Made by a program: the position numbers and the translations under genes | Source: an uncultured Lachnospira sp. | GTDB lineage: Bacteria; Bacillota; Clostridia; Lachnospirales; Lachnospiraceae | Direction: 5' to 3' | Assembly: GCA_934343805.1 (NCBI GenBank) | Contig: CAKRIN010000009.1 | Location: 35,231 to 99,230 of the forward strand | DNA length: 64,000 bases | Part shown: piece by piece, positions 19,885 through 60,840 of the stretch | Layout of the letters: each line of letters opens with the position of its first letter | How positions within the stretch are numbered: position 1 is the first letter of the stretch | The notes under the pieces: generated by a model | Told to the model about the DNA's origin: nothing | The model's database searches: none | The model's input: the letters and a program-made list of their open reading frames with translations, nothing else

Positions 19885-20757
19885 TTATCTGATACTTTTA
19901 TAGATTTCTGGTCTTCTGTCACGGAACAGTCCCCAGCTTATGCGCATGTCTGTATCAGCGTCAATGTCTGTTTCTCCATATACAATCTCTTCCTTGTCTC
20001 TTGAAGCCTGCATCACTATCTCGCCTGTTGCATCAGTTACAAATGAAGAGCCATAGAATACAAGTGATGACTCCTGATGTCCGTTGGCTTCCGATGGTGT
20101 AACCTTCTCCTCCCCGATACGATTGGCGGCTACAACAGGAACTATATTGCACGCTGAATGTCCCTGCATGCATCTTCTCCAGTGTGGCATGCTGTCAACC
20201 TCAAGGATAGGTTCCGAGCCAATCGCAGTAGGATAGAAAAGGATTTCTGCTCCCTGTACTGCCATTCCTCTGGCTGTCTCAGGAAACCACTGGTCCCAGC
20301 ATATTCCCACACCTATCTTTGCATATTTTGTGTTCCACACCTTAAAACCTGTATCCCCTGGTGTGAAATAGAACTTTTCCTGATAATAATGGTCGTCAGG
20401 AATATGTGTTTTTCTGTATGTTCCAAGAACACTTCCATCTGCGTCGATAACCGCAATTGTATTATAGAACACATTTATATCTCTTTCATAAAAGCTTATT
20501 GGAAGCACAACCTGTAGCTCGGCTGCCACCTTCTGAAAATGCTTCACCGCCGGATTCTCATCAACAGGTGTTGCAAATGCGTAATAATCATAATTTCTCT
20601 CCTGACAGAAATACTGTCTTTCAAAAAGCTCAGGAAGCAGTATTATCTGTGCACCATTAGCTGCCGCTTCACGAACCATCTTATCAGCCTTTGCAATATT
20701 CTCTTCTACTGATTTCGAACACTGCATCTGTATGCCTGCATATTTTACATTTCTCAC
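19885..20757 (-). CDS. aguB: N-carbamoylputrescine amidase
   Basis: 290 aa, the normal length for this nitrilase-superfamily enzyme. The catalytic Glu-Lys-Cys set is visible as LPELFE, YRKTHIPDD and GVGICWDQWFPE. It hydrolyses N-carbamoylputrescine to putrescine, CO2 and ammonia in the cytoplasm. It is the last gene of the operon and starts one base after the stop of aguA, whose product makes its substrate. Confidence 0.95.
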   Translation of the reverse strand: MRNVKYAGIQMQCSKSVEENIAKADKMVREAAANGAQIILLPELFERQYFCQERNYDYYAFATPVDENPAVKHFQKVAAELQVVLPISFYERDINVFYNTIAVIDADGSVLGTYRKTHIPDDHYYQEKFYFTPGDTGFKVWNTKYAKIGVGICWDQWFPETARGMAVQGAEILFYPTAIGSEPILEVDSMPHWRRCMQGHSACNIVPVVAANRIGEEKVTPSEANGHQESSLVFYGSSFVTDATGEIVMQASRDKEEIVYGETDIDADTDMRISWGLFRDRRPEIYKSIR

Positions 20758-20758
20758 A

Positions 20759-21880
20759 CTATTTTACCTCCGGTATCTGTTGTGTAATACAGTGGATATT
20801 ACCTCCACCAACTATTATGTCTCTCGCATATATCCCGACTATCTTTCTGTCTGGGAATGCCTCTTTAAGCACATTTATTGCTAGGCTGTCCGCCTCATCA
20901 TGAAACTGCGGCACTATTACTGAATCATTGGCAATATAGAAATTAACATAAGACGCTGCAAGACGCTCTCCTGCCTCTCTCATGTCCTCGCCTTCCTCAA
21001 ATTCAAAGCCTGCCAGTTCTTCCTCGGTTATGCACACCGGCTTCTTAGGAATAAGCATTTTTCTTACTTTAAAATGTCTTCCTTTGGCGTCAGTTACATT
21101 TTCAAGGACAGACAGGCAAGCCTTGCTCATCTCATACTGCGGGTCGTTCTCATCATCCGTCCACGCAAGCACAACTTCACCGGGTGCTGTAAATGCACAT
21201 ACATTATCCACATGCTCGTTAGTCTCGTCATTATATATTCCACATGGAAGCCAGATTATTTTGCTCACATTGCAGTACCGCTTTAACTTATCCTCAATCT
21301 GTGCCTTAGTAAGCTCAGGATTTCTTCCCTTGCTCAACAGGCAGCTTTCAGTAACAAGCATTGTTCCTTCGCCATCTGTATGAATTGAACCGCCTTCCAG
21401 AACAAATGGTGCTGCATTATATCCCTGACAACCAAGATAAGACATAAACTTTCCGGCTACAAGATTGTCCTTTTCCCAGTCCGCATAAAGTCCGTCATAT
21501 GTTCCGCCCCACGCATTAAATTCCCAGTTAATCCCCCGTAAATCTCTTGCTTCATATGGTGTATCCACATTTCCACTCACAACAAATGTCGGTCCGGTGT
21601 CTCTTGCCCATGCATCATCCGTATCCATGACTACAAGCCTGACCGATTTTGGGAGCATCTTCGCTGCTTCTTCTTTTCCGCCCTCTGATACAATCATGTA
21701 CACCTTCTCGCTCTCACTGATTACAGACGCTATCTGTGCAAATGCTTTCTTAGCCGCCTTTGCTCCATATATCCACGATCCTGGTCTTTCCGGCCATATC
21801 ATAATGCAGCCCTGATGTCTTTCAAATTCAGCAGGCATGCGGAATCCGTCTGCTGCCGGAGTGCTGTTTATATAATCCAT
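20759..21880 (-). CDS. aguA: Agmatine deiminase
   Basis: 373 aa. The family signature near the N-terminus ([18 protein letters not shown]), the [12 protein letters not shown] segment, the glycine-rich [14 protein letters not shown] and the C-terminal [13 protein letters not shown] with the nucleophilic cysteine are all intact. It converts agmatine to N-carbamoylputrescine and ammonia. It is coupled to nspC upstream (two bases between stop and start) and aguB downstream. Confidence 0.96.
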
Positions 21881-21882
21881 AT

Positions 21883-23112
21883 CTATAATCTCCCTTTGAA
21901 ATCTTCATAGCCAAAATGCTTCCACACCCTACATTTCCCATCACAATCCATAATTGCAATATCCGGCAGTGGAATTCCGTTAAATGTATTGTTCTTAACC
22001 ATCGAATATATAGCCATATCTTCAAATACAAGTCTGTCCCCGACATTGATCTCCCTGCCAAATTCATAATCACCTATGATATCTCCTGCAAGGCATGTAT
22101 AAGATGACAGTCTGTATCTGTATCTTCCCTTCTTCGCCGGTTTCCATATACCTTCTTTTACATCCATATCAAAATCAATCTCTATGTCCTTATCAATTCC
22201 ATACTCATCTTCTATGTCCGATATTTTCAATCCATCACGAAGCGGTGGTGTATATGGCATCTCCAGTACATCAGGCATATGGCACGCTGCAGAGGCGTCA
22301 AGTATAAGCGTTGTTATTCCATTTTCAACTTTATCAAGAACTGTCGTTACGAGATATCCTGCATTAAGTGCAACAGCCTCCCCCGGTTCAACATACACCT
22401 GTACATCATATTCCTTTTGCACATGAGTGATACATTTTTCAAGAGTTTTAATGTCGTAATCTTCACGGGTTATATGGTGTCCGCCGCCAAAATTAACCCA
22501 CTTCATATCTTTCATAAGAAAGCCAAATTTCTCTTCAACAACCTTTAATGTTGCCTCTAAGTCATCTGAATTCTGTTCGCACAGTGTGTGAAAATGTATT
22601 CCTTCCATACCTGATAACACATCAGGTTCTTCCTTAAGTGCAGCTTTCAGGTTCTTAAGTGTAACCCCGAGTCTGCTGCCCGGTGCGCATGGGTCATATA
22701 TTGCATGGTCACCCTGTGTTGAGAACTCAGGATTAATGCGCAGTCCAAAGCTTACCCCTGCCTCAATACATCTGACTTTATGTTTCTTTAACTGCGAAAC
22801 TGAGTTAAAGACAACATGGTCACATATATTTACAAGCTCGTCCATATCTTCATCAGTAAATGCGGGTGCAAATACATGATTTTCTTTTCCCATGCACTCA
22901 GCACCAAGTCTGGCTTCATATATTCCACTCGCCGTTGTTCCACTTATATACTTTCCAATAAGCGGATATTCTGCATATGCTGAAAATGCTTTCTGCGCAA
23001 GCAGTATATGGCAGCCCGTGTCCTCTTCCACTTTATGAAGTATCTCAAGATTATGGATAAGCATTTTCTCATCAATTACATATGCCGGTGTCTTTAACTC
23101 ATCAAATCTCAT
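21883..23112 (-). CDS. nspC: Carboxynorspermidine/carboxyspermidine decarboxylase
   Basis: 409 aa, PLP fold III (alanine-racemase type). The PLP lysine lies in [10 protein letters not shown] near residue 42, and the glycine-rich phosphate loop is [10 protein letters not shown]; the second-subunit cysteine region around FHTLCEQN and the [10 protein letters not shown] segment fit CANSDC. The enzyme decarboxylates carboxyspermidine to spermidine (or the nor form). It follows its partner dehydrogenase with a 55-bp gap and is part of the polyamine operon. Confidence 0.95.
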
Positions 23113-23167: not shown

Positions 23168-24427
23168 TTAGTCGACCAAAACAGGATTTTCATCGACAAC
23201 CCATGGAAGACCATACTTATTAAGTGCCTCCATGTATGGATCAGGATCAAATTCATCTGTTGTGAATACACCCGGCTTGTTCCAGAGTCCCTTGGCAACA
23301 AGCATTGTACCAATCATCGCAGGTACACCTGTTGTATATGAAATAGCCTGTGAGCCAACCTCGCGGTAACATTCCTGATGGTCACACACATTGTAAATAT
23401 ATATCTTCTTCTCCTTACCATCCTTGATACCTGTGAAGATACAGCCGATATTAGTCTTACCTACTGTTCTTGGACCAAGTGAAGCTGGATCTGGAAGAAG
23501 CGCCTTTAAGAACTGGATTGGAACAATTTCCTGTCCGTTGAATTCAACCGGGTCAGTTCTTAACATACCAACATTTTCAAGGCATTTCATATGTGTAAGA
23601 TAACTCTGTCCAAATGTCATGAAGAAACGGATTCTCTTAACATGTGGAATATTAGCAGCAAGTGCCTCGATCTCTTCATGATGAAGCAGGTACATGTCTT
23701 TCATTCCAACGCCTTTAAAATCATACTCTCTCTTTATTGACATAGGTGGTATCTCAACCCAGTGTCCGTCCTCCCAGTATGATCCAGGTGCTGATACCTC
23801 ACGAAGATTAATTTCTGGGTTAAAGTTAGTTGCAAACGGATATCCGTGATCACCGCCATTGCAGTCTAATATATCAATTGTATGTATCTCATCAAAATAA
23901 TGCTTCTGTGCATAAGCAGTGAATACGCTTGTTACACCCGGATCAAATCCTGTTCCTAAAAGTGCTGTGATTCCAGCTTCTTTATATTTTTCTCTGTAAG
24001 CCCACTGCCATGAATAGTCAAAATATGCTGTAAATCCGAGGCGTTTGCATCTCTCCTCGTACACCTTTCTCCACTCAGGATTGTCTGTATCTTCACACTC
24101 ATAATTAGCAGTATCCACATAAGGAACTTTGCATGCAAGGCAGGCGTCCATAATAGTAAGATCCTGATATGGAAGTGCCACATTAAGAACTACATCCGGT
24201 TTGAATTCATTAATAAGCGCGATAACCTCATCTGTGTTGTCAGCATCAACCTTTGCTGTTGTGATGTTAGTGCTTGTCTTGTCCTTTAATTCTTCTGCTA
24301 ATTTGTCACATTTGCTCACTGTTCTGCTCGCTATGCACAGGTCTGAAAATACCTCGCTTACCTGACATATCTTGTGAATTGCTACTGAAGCAACTCCTCC
24401 GCAACCAATTACTAATACTCTGCTCAT
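23168..24427 (-). CDS. Carboxynorspermidine/carboxyspermidine dehydrogenase (saccharopine dehydrogenase family)
   Basis: 419 aa. A Rossmann NAD(P)-binding start (VLVIGCGGVASVAIHKI) and the conserved FDYSWQWAYREKYK and GTGFDPGVTSVFTAY segments identify the CASDH group rather than lysine-metabolic saccharopine dehydrogenase. It condenses putrescine with aspartate beta-semialdehyde and reduces the imine to carboxyspermidine. The start overlaps the stop of speE by four bases (ATGA). Its amino-acid donor is also the substrate of the homoserine dehydrogenase encoded at 61.5-62.8 kb. Confidence 0.95.
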   Translation of the reverse strand: MSRVLVIGCGGVASVAIHKICQVSEVFSDLCIASRTVSKCDKLAEELKDKTSTNITTAKVDADNTDEVIALINEFKPDVVLNVALPYQDLTIMDACLACKVPYVDTANYECEDTDNPEWRKVYEERCKRLGFTAYFDYSWQWAYREKYKEAGITALLGTGFDPGVTSVFTAYAQKHYFDEIHTIDILDCNGGDHGYPFATNFNPEINLREVSAPGSYWEDGHWVEIPPMSIKREYDFKGVGMKDMYLLHHEEIEALAANIPHVKRIRFFMTFGQSYLTHMKCLENVGMLRTDPVEFNGQEIVPIQFLKALLPDPASLGPRTVGKTNIGCIFTGIKDGKEKKIYIYNVCDHQECYREVGSQAISYTTGVPAMIGTMLVAKGLWNKPGVFTTDEFDPDPYMEALNKYGLPWVVDENPVLVD

Positions 24428-25281
24428 CTTTCTTCCTCCTGTTCTAATAATTCTTCAACATACTTTGGCAGCATAAATGCGCCTGTATGAAGATTAGTTG
24501 TATAATATTCTGTATGTATATTTCTTCGTTTCCACTCCGCCGGCTTGAAATCCTTAAGCGGATGATATTTCTTCGACGCAAATCCAAACAGCCAGTATCC
24601 TGACGGACTTGTTGGTATATGTGCCTGATACACGCGGCTTATTGGAAATGTGTGGAACACCTTCCTGTGCATGCTTCTGCATGCATCCTCATCCTCATCA
24701 TAGAAAGGACTTCCATGCTGGTACACAAGTATTCCGTCCTCTTTAAGTGCCTTATAACAGTTTCCGTAGAATTCTCTTGTAAACAACCCCTCACTCGCAC
24801 CAAACGGATCTGTTGCGTCGTTAATTATAAGGTCATACATATCCTGCTTAGAACGCAGGAACCTTAATGCATCTGAATTATAAATGTGTACTCTCTCATC
24901 TTCTAATCCTGCTGCCGTCTCAGGAAAATACTCCCTGCACACATCAACAAACATGTTGTCCTGTTCCACTATGTCAATATTTTCTATATTGTCATACTGT
25001 AACAGTTCCTTCGATACTCCTCCGTCACCACCACCGATTATCAATACATTTTTAACATCAGGGTGGACTGACATTGGCACATGCACTACCATCTCGTTGT
25101 AGATGAAGCAGTCCTGTTCTGAAAATATAACACTTCCGTTAAGTGTCAGGAATTTTCCAAACTCTGGTGACTGGAACACATCTATCCTCTGATAGTCGCT
25201 CTCGCCAGAAAATAGTTGTTTTTCAACCCTGATATCAAACTTCACATGTGGTGAATGAAGTTCTGAAAACCAAAATTCCAT
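24424..25281 (-). CDS. speE: Spermidine synthase-type aminopropyltransferase
   Basis: 285 aa, the usual length. The conserved GGGDGGVSKELLQYDNIE motif and the following DIVEQDNMFVDVCREYFP bind the decarboxylated S-adenosylmethionine donor; INDATDPFGASEGLFTREFY carries the catalytic Asp region. It transfers aminopropyl to putrescine or a related diamine. No S-adenosylmethionine decarboxylase (speD) is present in the window, so the donor must come from elsewhere or the enzyme has another role. It lies 47 bp after speA. Confidence 0.93.
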   Translation of the reverse strand: MEFWFSELHSPHVKFDIRVEKQLFSGESDYQRIDVFQSPEFGKFLTLNGSVIFSEQDCFIYNEMVVHVPMSVHPDVKNVLIIGGGDGGVSKELLQYDNIENIDIVEQDNMFVDVCREYFPETAAGLEDERVHIYNSDALRFLRSKQDMYDLIINDATDPFGASEGLFTREFYGNCYKALKEDGILVYQHGSPFYDEDEDACRSMHRKVFHTFPISRVYQAHIPTSPSGYWLFGFASKKYHPLKDFKPAEWKRRNIHTEYYTTNLHTGAFMLPKYVEELLEQEEER

Positions 25282-25328: not shown

Positions 25329-26783
25329 TTATATTCTCAATACGTTAAGTGTCTGCAATGTTGAATCCTCCATTCCCTGCATTGAACAGCCCTTCTCAAC
25401 TGAATACTGAATATAGTCAATTATTTCATCTGTGATTTCTTCTCCCGGCGCAAGTATTGGAATTCCCGGCGGATATGCCATTACGAATTCTCCCGATATA
25501 TGTCCTGCTGCCTCACGGATTGGAACTCTTACCTTATTGGCATAGAAGGCTTCCTGTGGTGAAGCAAGCACCTTTGGAAGAAGCATTTGTCTGTCTACTT
25601 CAAAGCGTTTTTCTTCTCTTGAATACAGACGGCTGATTTCTGCCAGCGCTCCGACAAGTCTTTCTATATCCTGTATTCTGTCGCCGATTGATATGTACGC
25701 CATTATATTTCCAATATCACCGAATTCTATCTGGATATCATACTCATCTCTTAAGATGTCATACACTTCAATTCCATCAAGACCGATATCTCTAGTATAT
25801 ACGCAGAGCTTGGTAACATCATAATCATAGACTGTTCCACCATTAATCAGTTCTTTTCCATATGCATAGTAACCGCCTACCATATTAATCTCATCTCTTG
25901 CATACTGCGCCCACTCGCTCACCTTTGCAAATGACTGTCTGCCGCGCAGGGCAAGATTTCTTCTTGATATATCAAGGCTTGTCATAAGAAGATATGACGC
26001 GCTCGTTGTCTGCGTAATATTAATAATTGTCTGTACATAATCTGCGTTCATGCCATTATTGGTAAGCAGTATTGAACTCTGTGTAAGCGAACCGCCTGAC
26101 TTATGCATTGATATTGCCGCAAGGTCTGCTCCTGCCTTCATTGAATTCATAGGCAGGTTATCACCAAAATACAGATGTGTTCCATGCGCCTCATCAGCAA
26201 GTACCTTAAGTCCATATGCATGTGCTATATCACATATTCCCTTGATGTCCGAACATATTCCATAGTATGTAGGATTGTTTACTAAAACAGCCACCGCATT
26301 CGGGTGCTCCTGTATTGTCTTTTCGACCTGCTGCACAGTAACTCCAAGCACTATCCCAAGCTTTGCATTAATCTCCGTATTAAGATAAACAGGAATTGCA
26401 CCACACAGAATCAATGCATTAATTACGCTTTTATGCACATTTCTTGGAACGATAATCTCATCTCCAGCCTTACATACAGACAACACCATGTTCTGCACTG
26501 CCTGCGTAGTTCCTCCTACCATAAAAAATGCGTGTTCAGCCCCAAATGCTTCTGCTGTAAGCTCCTCTGCCTCCTTAATAACAGAAACAGGGTGGCACAG
26601 GTTATCAAGCGGCTTCATCGAATTGACATCAATTCCAACACATCTTTCTCCGAGTAAATCTACCAGCTCAGGATTGCCCCTTCCCCTCTTATGTCCCGGA
26701 ACATCAAACGGAACAATTCTTTTCTTCCTGAATTTCTCAATTGCTTCGTAAAGCGGCGCACTCGCCTGTCTTTTTAAGTCCAT
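25329..26783 (-). CDS. speA: Arginine decarboxylase (Orn/Lys/Arg decarboxylase, fold type I)
   Basis: 484 aa, the short Firmicute form. The N-terminal PFDVPGHKRG, the DEAHGTH motif (Asp198) and the PLP lysine in SMHKSGGSLTQSS (Lys228) are present, with a typical C-terminal Orn_DC_C domain. Specificity for arginine is inferred from the operon, whose aguA and aguB consume agmatine; lysine or ornithine cannot be excluded from sequence. GGGGGA lies close upstream of the start. It is the first gene of the six-gene polyamine operon. Confidence 0.92.
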   Translation of the reverse strand: MDLKRQASAPLYEAIEKFRKKRIVPFDVPGHKRGRGNPELVDLLGERCVGIDVNSMKPLDNLCHPVSVIKEAEELTAEAFGAEHAFFMVGGTTQAVQNMVLSVCKAGDEIIVPRNVHKSVINALILCGAIPVYLNTEINAKLGIVLGVTVQQVEKTIQEHPNAVAVLVNNPTYYGICSDIKGICDIAHAYGLKVLADEAHGTHLYFGDNLPMNSMKAGADLAAISMHKSGGSLTQSSILLTNNGMNADYVQTIINITQTTSASYLLMTSLDISRRNLALRGRQSFAKVSEWAQYARDEINMVGGYYAYGKELINGGTVYDYDVTKLCVYTRDIGLDGIEVYDILRDEYDIQIEFGDIGNIMAYISIGDRIQDIERLVGALAEISRLYSREEKRFEVDRQMLLPKVLASPQEAFYANKVRVPIREAAGHISGEFVMAYPPGIPILAPGEEITDEIIDYIQYSVEKGCSMQGMEDSTLQTLNVLRI

Positions 26784-26794
26784 AATCTCCCCCT

Positions 26795-26987
26795 GTTCTC
26801 ATCGCTGCCTGTACTTCTATTTCCATCACTACATGCACTTCTATTCTCATCGCTGCTCGCGCTCCCAGCTTTATTCCAGAGCTTCGCTCTGTCATTGTCG
26901 CGGCGCTCCTCGAATATCCGTGAAGAAATTCCAATTCATGCAAGCATGATTGTAATTTTTCACTTCTATTCTCATCGCTGCTCGCGC
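26795..26987 (-). repeat. speA leader: degenerate tandem repeats and a dispersed hairpin
   Basis: On the minus strand a unit GCGATGAGAATAGAAGTG occurs at about 26960-26980 and 26835-26855, with diverged tandem copies down to the speA ribosome site (GTGATGGAAATAGAAGTACA, GCGATGAGAACAG). Between them lies AGAGCGAAGCTCT (26878-26890), part of an element also seen at 7162-7200. Several in-frame and out-of-frame ATGs are created. I could not place a convincing promoter in this stretch. Confidence 0.5.
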
Positions 26988-27313
26988 AAAAAAGGCGTGA
27001 TTAATTTTAAATCAATCACGCCTGTATAATCATATTCTATCTTCTTTTTGATTACTGTATATTGACAAATACAGAAAATCTGACCTTTCAGAGTTTATCC
27101 AAGTAAGTCACTGTTACCGCTCTTATTGACCGTTTCACAAGATGATATGCTCTCTCGCATGATAATTTAAAAATCAACTTATAAAATTTGAGCTTCTAAC
27201 TCAATCAATAATGTGTGCCCTCGTCACACTCGGCAACCGACCCGCCCGTCCGCAAGGCTTAACATGTAATCATGTGGTCTGTATTTGTGATATCTTTTTA
27301 TATCCAAAATACC
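26986..27313 (-). ncRNA. Structured non-coding RNA, raiA-motif-like
   Basis: A stand-alone transcription unit of about 325 nt: promoter TTGACA-N17-TATATT just before, intrinsic terminator at its end. The 5' segment ACAAATACAGA (27278-27288) can pair perfectly with TCTGTATTTGT (27065-27075), closing a 224-nt core. Inside are hairpins CATGATTACATG, GTGTG/CACAC around ACGAGGG, and ATGC/GCAT around GAGAGA, with a GC-rich block (CTTGCGGACGGGCGGGTC) unlike the surrounding AT-rich DNA. No reading frame fits. The layout and core length recall the raiA-motif RNA of Clostridia, but that name is from memory and unverified. A cis-acting leader of speA is the alternative, but the terminator would then have to be read through. 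Confidence 0.6.
26993..27023 (-). terminator. Intrinsic terminator of the structured RNA
   Basis: AGGCGTGATT (26993-27002) pairs with AATCACGCCT (27014-27023); leftward it ends in CCTTTTTT. Confidence 0.8.
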
Positions 27314-27318
27314 CTTAA

Positions 27319-27347
27319 AATATAATATAACTGTCTACCGGTGTCAA
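27319..27347 (-). promoter_or_regulatory. Promoter of the structured RNA
   Basis: Perfect TTGACA (27342-27347) - 17 nt - TATATT (27319-27324); transcription should start near 27313 (GGG). Confidence 0.7.
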
Positions 27348-27383
27348 TAACATTTGTTATATTTATTCCATTTTTTACTGAAT

Positions 27384-28125
27384 CAATCTCTTTTTCCTTT
27401 TTTTACGCCTTCGTGCGCCTTCCTAGATCTTGCCACTTCCGCACTTCTTAATTTCATGCGCAAAAGGCATACTAATCCAATCTCGTTCCCCTTTTTAGTA
27501 CGTCTTCCCAGCTCTCGACACTTCCGCATTTCTTAATTTTCGCGCAAAAGGCGTACTTATCCAATCTATTTTCCCTTTTTAGTACGCCTTTCCAACTCTC
27601 AACTCAGCCTCACCTCTCAATTCCTTGCGCCAAATACATACTTATCTAATCTATTTTTCCTTTTTCGTACGCCTTACTAGCTCTCAACTCATCCGCACTT
27701 CTTAATTTCATGCGCAAAAGACGTACTTATCCAATCTATTTTCCCTTTTTAGTACGCCTTTCCAGCTCTTGCCTCAACTACACTTCTTAATTCCCTGCGC
27801 AAAAGGCGTACTTATCCAATCTATTTTCCCTTTTTAGTACGCCTTCCCAGCTCTCGACACTTCCGCACCTCTTAATTTTCTATGCAAAAGGCGTACTTAT
27901 CCAATCTCTTTTCTCTTTTTAGTACGCCTTTCCAACTCTCGACACATCCGCACTTCTTAATTTCATGCGCAAAAGACGTACTAATCCAATCTCTTTTCTC
28001 TTTTTAGTACGCTTTAGTGTGCCTTCCCAGCTCTTACCACTTCCGCACTTCTTAATTTCATGCGCAAAAGGCGTACTAATCCAATCTCTTTTCTCTTTTT
28101 AGTACGCTTTAGTGCGCCTTCCCTG
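27384..28125. repeat. Tandem array of an 85-bp hairpin unit (about eight copies)
   Basis: Copies of GCGCAAAAGGCGTACT begin at about 27458, 27542, 27627, 27712, 27797, 27882, 27967 and 28062; the spacing is 84-85 bp, with the last interval 95 because of an added TAGTGTGCCT. Each unit reads AAGGCGTACT, about 23-25 nt rich in T and C, AGTACGCCTT, then a conserved 30-nt linker (CAGCTCTCGACACTTCCGCA). The two 10-mers form a stem. The third copy (27627) is the most decayed. As 85 is not a multiple of three and frames are broken, it is not coding. It lies between the type VII island and the polyamine operon. Confidence 0.85.
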
Positions 28126-28218
28126 ATCCTTTAATCTATAATTCTTCCATTGAAGCAATGCTTAACACTGCTGATAATACTGATGGTACCCTGCATCTTA
28201 TTCACAAGAACTTTTCAC

Positions 28219-28272
28219 ACAAACTATCCACACAAACTATCCACACAAACTATCCACACAAACTATCCACAT
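28219..28272. repeat. Four 13-bp tandem repeats carrying DnaA-box-like nonamers
   Basis: The unit ACACAAACTATCC is repeated four times. Each junction gives CTATCCACA (28224-28232, 28237-28245, 28250-28258, 28263-28271), one base away from the DnaA box TTATCCACA. All four have the same orientation and a 13-bp period. Confidence 0.75.
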
Positions 28273-60611: not shown

Positions 60612-60840
60612 AGCAGTAGGTTGTGTCAGGTACAGACTAACTACAAACTATGCGCATAATAAAAGCATTGAGCATGTATATAGTCTAGTGTACACGCGTC
60701 CATGGACGGACGCGTGAGCTGCCACGCACACGGATGTGCGTTGGCGGCGTAACGGACACATAAACCAATTACATTGCTCAATGCTTATTATTATGCAGCT
60801 TAGTTTGTCCGGAAGTCTTACCTAACACAACCCTACTGCT
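60612..60840. repeat. Second 229-bp imperfect palindrome
   Basis: AGCAGTAGGTTGTGTCAGGT at the left end pairs with ACCTAACACAACCCTACTGCT-type sequence at the right end, and CATAATAAAAGCATTGAGCA with TGCTCAATGCTTATTATTATG. Inner hairpins include ACGCGTCC/GGACGCGT (60694-60715) and CGCACA/TGTGCG. The right end covers the last codons of the RNase H gene. Same length as the element at 14830-15058 but no clear sequence similarity. Confidence 0.75.

Follow-up and report, generated by a model that had tools for sequence, protein, structure and literature searches.

What kind of RNA is encoded just upstream of speA in an uncultured Lachnospira sp., and does it work on its own or on the genes that follow it? 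The window, as we call the whole stretch of 64,000 nucleotides (nt) analysed here (assembly GCA_934343805.1, contig CAKRIN010000009.1, positions 35,231 to 99,230 of the forward strand), carries at this place a stretch between a promoter and an intrinsic terminator. A sequence-only reading had proposed that it encodes a stand-alone structured RNA, suspecting the raiA motif and naming a new class or a regulator of the polyamine operon as further options. The comparative evidence favours the last of these. We consider it likely that the RNA is the leader of the window's polyamine operon and a member of a Bacillota family, acting in cis as an OFF riboswitch by transcription attenuation, with spermidine as the probable ligand, the binding of which we infer. 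Somewhat more cautiously, the family as a whole is probably a new class of riboswitches for polyamines (probably spermidine), unusually large and widespread, that occurs in Bacilli, Clostridia and Negativicutes and controls uptake (potA) as well as the two spermidine routes (speD and carboxyspermidine). So far, the catalogues contain just a 54-nt edge of it, as a pneumococcal small RNA (sRNA). The members of the family lie directly ahead of genes for polyamine synthesis or uptake and on the same strand, with a terminator in between, and in most of them the terminator 5' arm can pair with a CUUG segment of the core, to the exclusion of the core fold.

Association with polyamine genes

A scan of public genomes (genome_contigs) with the core pattern TTATTGATTG-N42-72-CTTGTKAANC-N1-3-TCAATA, which uses no gene information, found at least 119 loci. 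The titles of the 80 matches listed include Paenibacillus, Bacillus, Heyndrickxia, Blautia, Faecalibacterium, Acetobacterium, Acidaminococcus and Phascolarctobacterium. Four loci were left out of the gene-link count, as their contigs end too soon. All 115 scan loci with enough flank, among the matches listed, are followed on the same strand by a polyamine gene, namely speA/ldc in 57, the carboxynorspermidine synthase-like gene CANSDH in 29, speD in 22 and potA in 7. A polyamine gene is also present in all 30 loci derived from the Rfam family RF02440 (window included; speA/ldc 18, CANSDH 7, speD 5) and in 22 of the 22 genomes matched by R1, our covariance model of the core (the context of L156 was taken from L016, the same place). 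The distance from core to gene is ~190 to 630 nt. The reference proteins for the gene test came from the same locus set, the scan itself being protein-free. A check of three of the seven potA proteins showed that they pass TIGR01187. As expected of a riboswitch, a conserved structured RNA here leads functionally coherent genes.

In L088, the leader RNA and potA are separated by a gene for a P-II nitrogen regulator.

The leader RNA in the window

The leader has the following features (the helix labels P1-P7 used throughout are our own):

27342..27347, minus strand: -35 box TTGACA, by match to the consensus alone
27319..27324, minus strand: -10 box TATATT, by match to the consensus; transcription would start near 27312
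26993..27313, minus strand: leader RNA of ~320 nt, from the presumed start to the terminator
27278..27288, minus strand: 5' arm of the closing helix, ACAAATACAGA (11 bp; P1 of most homologues has other sequences)
27230..27280, minus strand: peripheral domain matching RF02440, GACC...CGGACGGGCGGGTC...TGCCGA (47.9 bits, gathering score 37.2)
27079..27236, minus strand: conserved core, model R1 (117.8 bits)
27065..27075, minus strand: 3' arm of the closing helix, TCTGTATTTGT (11 bp, exact pairing)
26993..27023, minus strand: intrinsic terminator AGGCGTGATTGATTTAAAATTAATCACGCCT and T run (-17.8 kcal/mol)

Most of what the sequence-only reading described at this place is confirmed. The two promoter boxes, separated by a 17-nt spacer, agree with the consensus at 11 of 12 positions, the closing helix pairs exactly and encloses 224 nt, and the GC-rich block is present on the minus strand. 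The terminator hairpin has 14 pairs, five of them G-C, with the T run after it. No open reading frame (ORF) of at least 40 amino acids fills the leader stretch, and speA (26783-25329, minus strand) is the next gene. A large structured RNA is supported. The folding energy of the 328-nt strand is -90.7 kcal/mol compared with -66.0 (standard deviation (sd) 5.6) in 100 dinucleotide shuffles, none of which is as low (z -4.4). What does not hold is the stand-alone character. The RNA is co-oriented with speA, its homologues are tied in position to polyamine genes, and in most homologues the terminator belongs to a leader that also has a conserved antiterminator, which argues against a stand-alone main role.

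Structure of the core

The following elements are found in the core of the window:

27205..27211, minus strand: P2 5' strand TTATTGA, pairing with 27129-27123
27188..27204, minus strand: P3 hairpin TTGAGTTAGAAGCTCAA
27178..27181, minus strand: P4 5' strand UAAG, pairing with CUUG in 86 of 86 sequences
27161..27175, minus strand: P5 hairpin GATTTTTAAATTATC, one pair of which shows the strongest covariation (G-C to A-U)
27138..27141, minus strand: P4 3' strand CUUG, in the segment that pairs with the terminator 5' arms of homologues
27123..27129, minus strand: P2 3' strand TCAATAA, partner of 27205-27211
within the equivalent of 27079..27236, minus strand: core stretch CUUGUGAAACGGUCAAUAAGAGUAGUAAAAG

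P2 (UUAUUGA/UCAAUAA) encloses P3, P4 (UAAG/CUUG), P5 and P6, and in most members P7 (GAGU/ACUC) forms a pseudoknot across P1. All seven pairs of P2 are kept in at least 84 of the 86 sequences; P2 and P4 are almost invariant and therefore lie outside covariation testing. In the window the 11-bp helix replaces P1, at a different place. On average the energies support P1 as a common helix, with -10.5 kcal/mol compared with -8.9 after swapping (sd 0.18; 68 distinct loci among 111 testable ones), and several of the automatic P1 pairings, the window's included, differ from the expected helix. In the alignment, 90.1% of the cells in paired positions are paired, compared with 85.1% in shuffles, and the covariation score is 0.171, compared with 0.098 in shuffles and at most 0.055 in controls with slid partners. 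The covariation test suggested by the sequence-only reading was done with a home-made test similar to R-scape and gave a divided result: 5 of the 34 proposed pairs are significant, and the all-pairs test leaves one pair, in P5. An ungrouped test on the full-length alignment gave two pairs at E < 0.05.

Terminator and antiterminator

The 115 scan loci and the 30 RF02440-derived loci were combined into a set of 145, of which 144 were used after L013, where the search for CUUG failed, was dropped. A terminator of -12 kcal/mol or lower lies between core and gene in 136 of the 144 loci, compared with 16 of 288 dinucleotide-shuffled regions. For the pairing of the arms, three loci in which no terminator reached -9 kcal/mol were removed, leaving 141. 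Pairing of the terminator 5' arm with the 19 nt that end in CUUGU has a mean energy of -12.3 kcal/mol, compared with -5.1 for the remaining windows of each leader, and this CUUG segment is the best window for the arm in 95 of the 141 loci and among the top 5% in 111. Examples are the pairing of GCAGACUUG with CAAGUCUGC in L113, of UCAAAACUUG with CAAGUUUUGA in L074 and of CAUCACUUG with CAGGUGAUG in L096. Swapping the arms among 117 distinct loci changed the energy from -12.1 kcal/mol for native pairs to -9.3 (sd 0.21), an average cost of 2.8 kcal/mol, and none of 5000 permutations was as low as the native value. Thus, the terminator arm and the core segment change together. Since the same CUUG pairs with the UAAG of the core in all 86 sequences, core fold and antiterminator are mutually exclusive. 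At the level of the family, the terminator and the mutually exclusive antiterminator that characterise a riboswitch are both present.

Rfam identity and extent of the family

At gathering scores, the whole window has two Rfam matches, of which RF02440 (SpF59_sRNA, ldcC RNA) covers the leader's peripheral domain with the whole model (1-54). The model of the raiA family (RF03072) matches nothing in the full window at its gathering score, nothing in 26700-27700 at E-values up to 10 and nothing in 21 relatives. The same model matches 14 of 149 other Bacillota genomes, so the raiA test works. The Rfam scan proposed by the earlier reading thus returned a family above gathering, and not the one suspected. 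The option of a new class stands for the core, which is not in Rfam, and falls for the 54-nt piece, which is already there as an sRNA. RF02440 models these 54 nt only and is typed as an sRNA gene; its domain has no recognisable counterpart in eight core-bearing loci (L040, L048, L068, L080, L104, L124, L140, L148), where the core gave no Rfam match at E-values up to 0.1.

The label 'ldcC RNA' indicates that the gene link had already been noticed for the 54-nt fragment; SP0916 is presumably the lysine decarboxylase gene. The pneumococcal RNA behind RF02440 is F59/srn235/SN20/Spd_sr49, given as 82 nt between SP0915 and SP0916 in the available part of PMC3395615. In the accessible text of PMC12323649 it is placed at 869478-869804, and the 327 nt listed are near the ~320 nt of the window leader.

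RF02440 was found in 13 of 61 relatives and in 16 of 398 Bacillota genomes, and sequence conservation reaches well beyond its 54 nt. R1 was built from 86 sequences, with the window copy among them; 19 of the 105 representatives had been omitted by hand to shorten the alignment, and L007 and L136 are apparently one locus counted twice. The core of the window, itself one of the 86 training rows, is the best and sole R1 match there at E-values up to 1. R1 matches 22 of the 398 genomes. All 16 genomes with an RF02440 match are among them, and so are four with remote members. Among 41 relatives, R1 matches 13, with 12 of 22 genomes within the window's genus. The four remote members (L167-L170, E-values 3e-6 to 5e-5), all upstream of speD, are without the P2/P3 part and keep CUUGUGAA...AAUAAGAGUAGUAAAAG...GACUCUG or a close variant; the smallest core may be definable from them. 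Altogether, the family is found in Bacilli, Clostridia and Negativicutes.

Apart from this, an extra 5' hairpin TTGGAAAG...CTTTCCAA was seen by eye in the alignment right after a TATGAT-like -10 box in L035, L038, L044 and others. The second Rfam match of the window is TwoAYGGAY RNA at 60642-60809 (plus strand), with 66.1 bits, which is above its gathering score. Clostridiales-1 RNA, at 26979-26867 (minus strand) between terminator and speA, has 30.1 bits compared with a gathering score of 48 and was not used. The remaining sub-threshold Rfam matches in 26700-27700 (plant microRNAs, K10_TLS etc.) were taken as chance. A phage origin was discarded, as the pattern CTTGTNAAACGGTCAATAA gave no matches in viral_contigs.

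A candidate polyamine riboswitch

In the proposed mechanism, the ligand would hold P4 (UAAG with CUUG) in the folded core, upon which the terminator would form, transcription would stop and a discrete RNA of ~320 nt would be released. In the absence of ligand, the CUUG segment would capture the terminator 5' arm and RNA polymerase would read into the operon. A plentiful polyamine such as spermidine would in this way bring transcription of the polyamine genes to an early end. Spermidine is proposed because the linked genes have it as their common end product. Beyond the ligand, we infer the direction of the response and that the window's own copy uses the switch.

According to the available part of PMC10853860 (Salvail et al. 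2023), spermidine riboswitches that are variants of SAM-I lie upstream of ldcC, speB, speE and speD and act by termination. They share with the present family the link to polyamine genes, including ldcC, and the OFF terminator logic. However, they are a different RNA: the leader described here is larger, models of the SAM family gave no match in 26700-27700 at E-values up to 10, and the variant is rare, with 13 representatives in that source compared with at least 119 loci here. The speF motif is likewise a leader RNA of a polyamine gene, but it is alphaproteobacterial and found upstream of speF (PMC11477304, available part), and it has no Rfam match in the window. A description of the present RNA as a polyamine switch was not found in the open PMC literature; subscription papers were outside the search and an earlier account is possible.

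Several observations weigh against the riboswitch reading. The window's own CUUG segment and terminator arm pair at only -4.0 kcal/mol, a value that 62% of the other windows of the leader reach, and the best partners of the arm there are the RF02440 domain (-12.7 kcal/mol) and the P5/P6 stretch (-11.7 kcal/mol). In its relatives L008, L010, L011 and L079, the arm may pair with P5/P6 at -10 to -12 kcal/mol, and in some of them other windows pair equally well or better. The antiterminator of this lineage seems to be re-registered or weak. Among six loci outside the scan set, the CUUG segment is the best window in L161 only and ranks within about the top tenth in three, and L160 and L169 are without the pairing. 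Furthermore, 10 of the 22 genomes of the window's genus, some of them incomplete, are without an R1 copy. The covariation in the alignment is modest, and P2 and P4 hardly vary. Moreover, the pneumococcal relatives are catalogued as an sRNA, and one survey lists a lung phenotype (F59 is a 'Lung' entry in a table of the review PMC4387999, available in part), which could also be due to a role in trans.

Alternative explanations

The alternative that survives best, possible yet unlikely, keeps the same cis switch and gives it a precursor or another polyamine as ligand (putrescine, cadaverine, agmatine or decarboxylated S-adenosylmethionine). It is favoured by speA/ldc being the commonest gene, in 75 of the 145 loci (among the matches listed and RF02440-derived), with agmatine or cadaverine as direct products. 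On the other hand, spermidine is the common product or cargo of the speD, CANSDH and potA members, and the CANSDH route does not make decarboxylated S-adenosylmethionine, which counts against the latter.

We regard it as improbable that the RNA is a trans-acting structured RNA similar to raiA/ModT, which merely lies beside polyamine genes and is just ended by its terminator. Its own promoter and terminator, its very high sequence conservation and the cataloguing of the pneumococcal homologue as sRNA F59/srn235/Spd_sr49 would suit such a role, and raiA/ModT is, like the leader RNA, a structured Bacillota RNA (~200 nt) with its own promoter. However, the co-oriented polyamine genes downstream in 115 of 115 loci, among the matches listed, and the joint change of terminator and core pairing argue for control in cis. 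Furthermore, the available parts of PMC11706538 and PMC11477304 describe raiA/ModT as trans-acting and without a tie to polyamine genes, and in the latter raiA is often distant from the next ORF and sometimes on the opposite strand.

Likewise improbable, finally, is attenuation in cis by means of a protein, or of a ribosome on a leader peptide, instead of a small molecule: it would have the same anatomy, and a potABCD leader attenuator is mentioned for Pasteurellaceae (PMC8744998, available part), but a TTG-started frame over P3 is broken in L021 and L052 (alignment by eye), and a core of ~100 nt with unpaired invariant letters, in three Bacillota classes and with differing neighbours, is more in keeping with an aptamer than with a protein site.

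RNA is coated by polyamines in all cells, and the search for RNA that senses them has been a long one; the one bacterial class that has been published is called rare in the accessible part of PMC10853860. If the riboswitch reading is true, polyamine sensing by RNA would become directly testable in gut commensals, soil bacilli and probably streptococci, the catalogued 'sRNA' F59/srn235 would be a prematurely terminated leader, and a large new fold would be available for structural work.

The polyamine operon and neighbouring repeats

Six genes downstream of the leader RNA are co-oriented with it:

25329..26783, minus strand: speA, Orn/Lys/Arg decarboxylase (PF01276; NCBIfam matches below cut-off; arginine as the probable substrate, judging by the operon)
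24424..25281, minus strand: speE, polyamine aminopropyltransferase (TIGR00417 and NF002010 over cut-off)
23168..24427, minus strand: CANSDH, carboxynorspermidine synthase-like (NF043000 at 420 bits, below the cut-off of 800; Pfam Sacchrp_dh)
21883..23112, minus strand: nspC, carboxynorspermidine decarboxylase (TIGR01047 over cut-off)
20759..21880, minus strand: aguA, agmatine deiminase (TIGR03380 over cut-off)
19885..20757, minus strand: aguB, N-carbamoylputrescine amidase (TIGR03381 over cut-off)

With arginine as the presumed substrate of speA, the six genes together cover the route from arginine to spermidine.

A tandem array of ~8 units of 85 nt is found at 27416-28123 of the window, with a hairpin AAAAGGCGTACT...AGTACGCCTT in each unit, the arms of which are similar to the GGCGT arm of the speA-leader terminator. 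At 28216-28271 there is a 13-nt repeat, CACACAAACTATC, in 4.3 copies with 100% matches.
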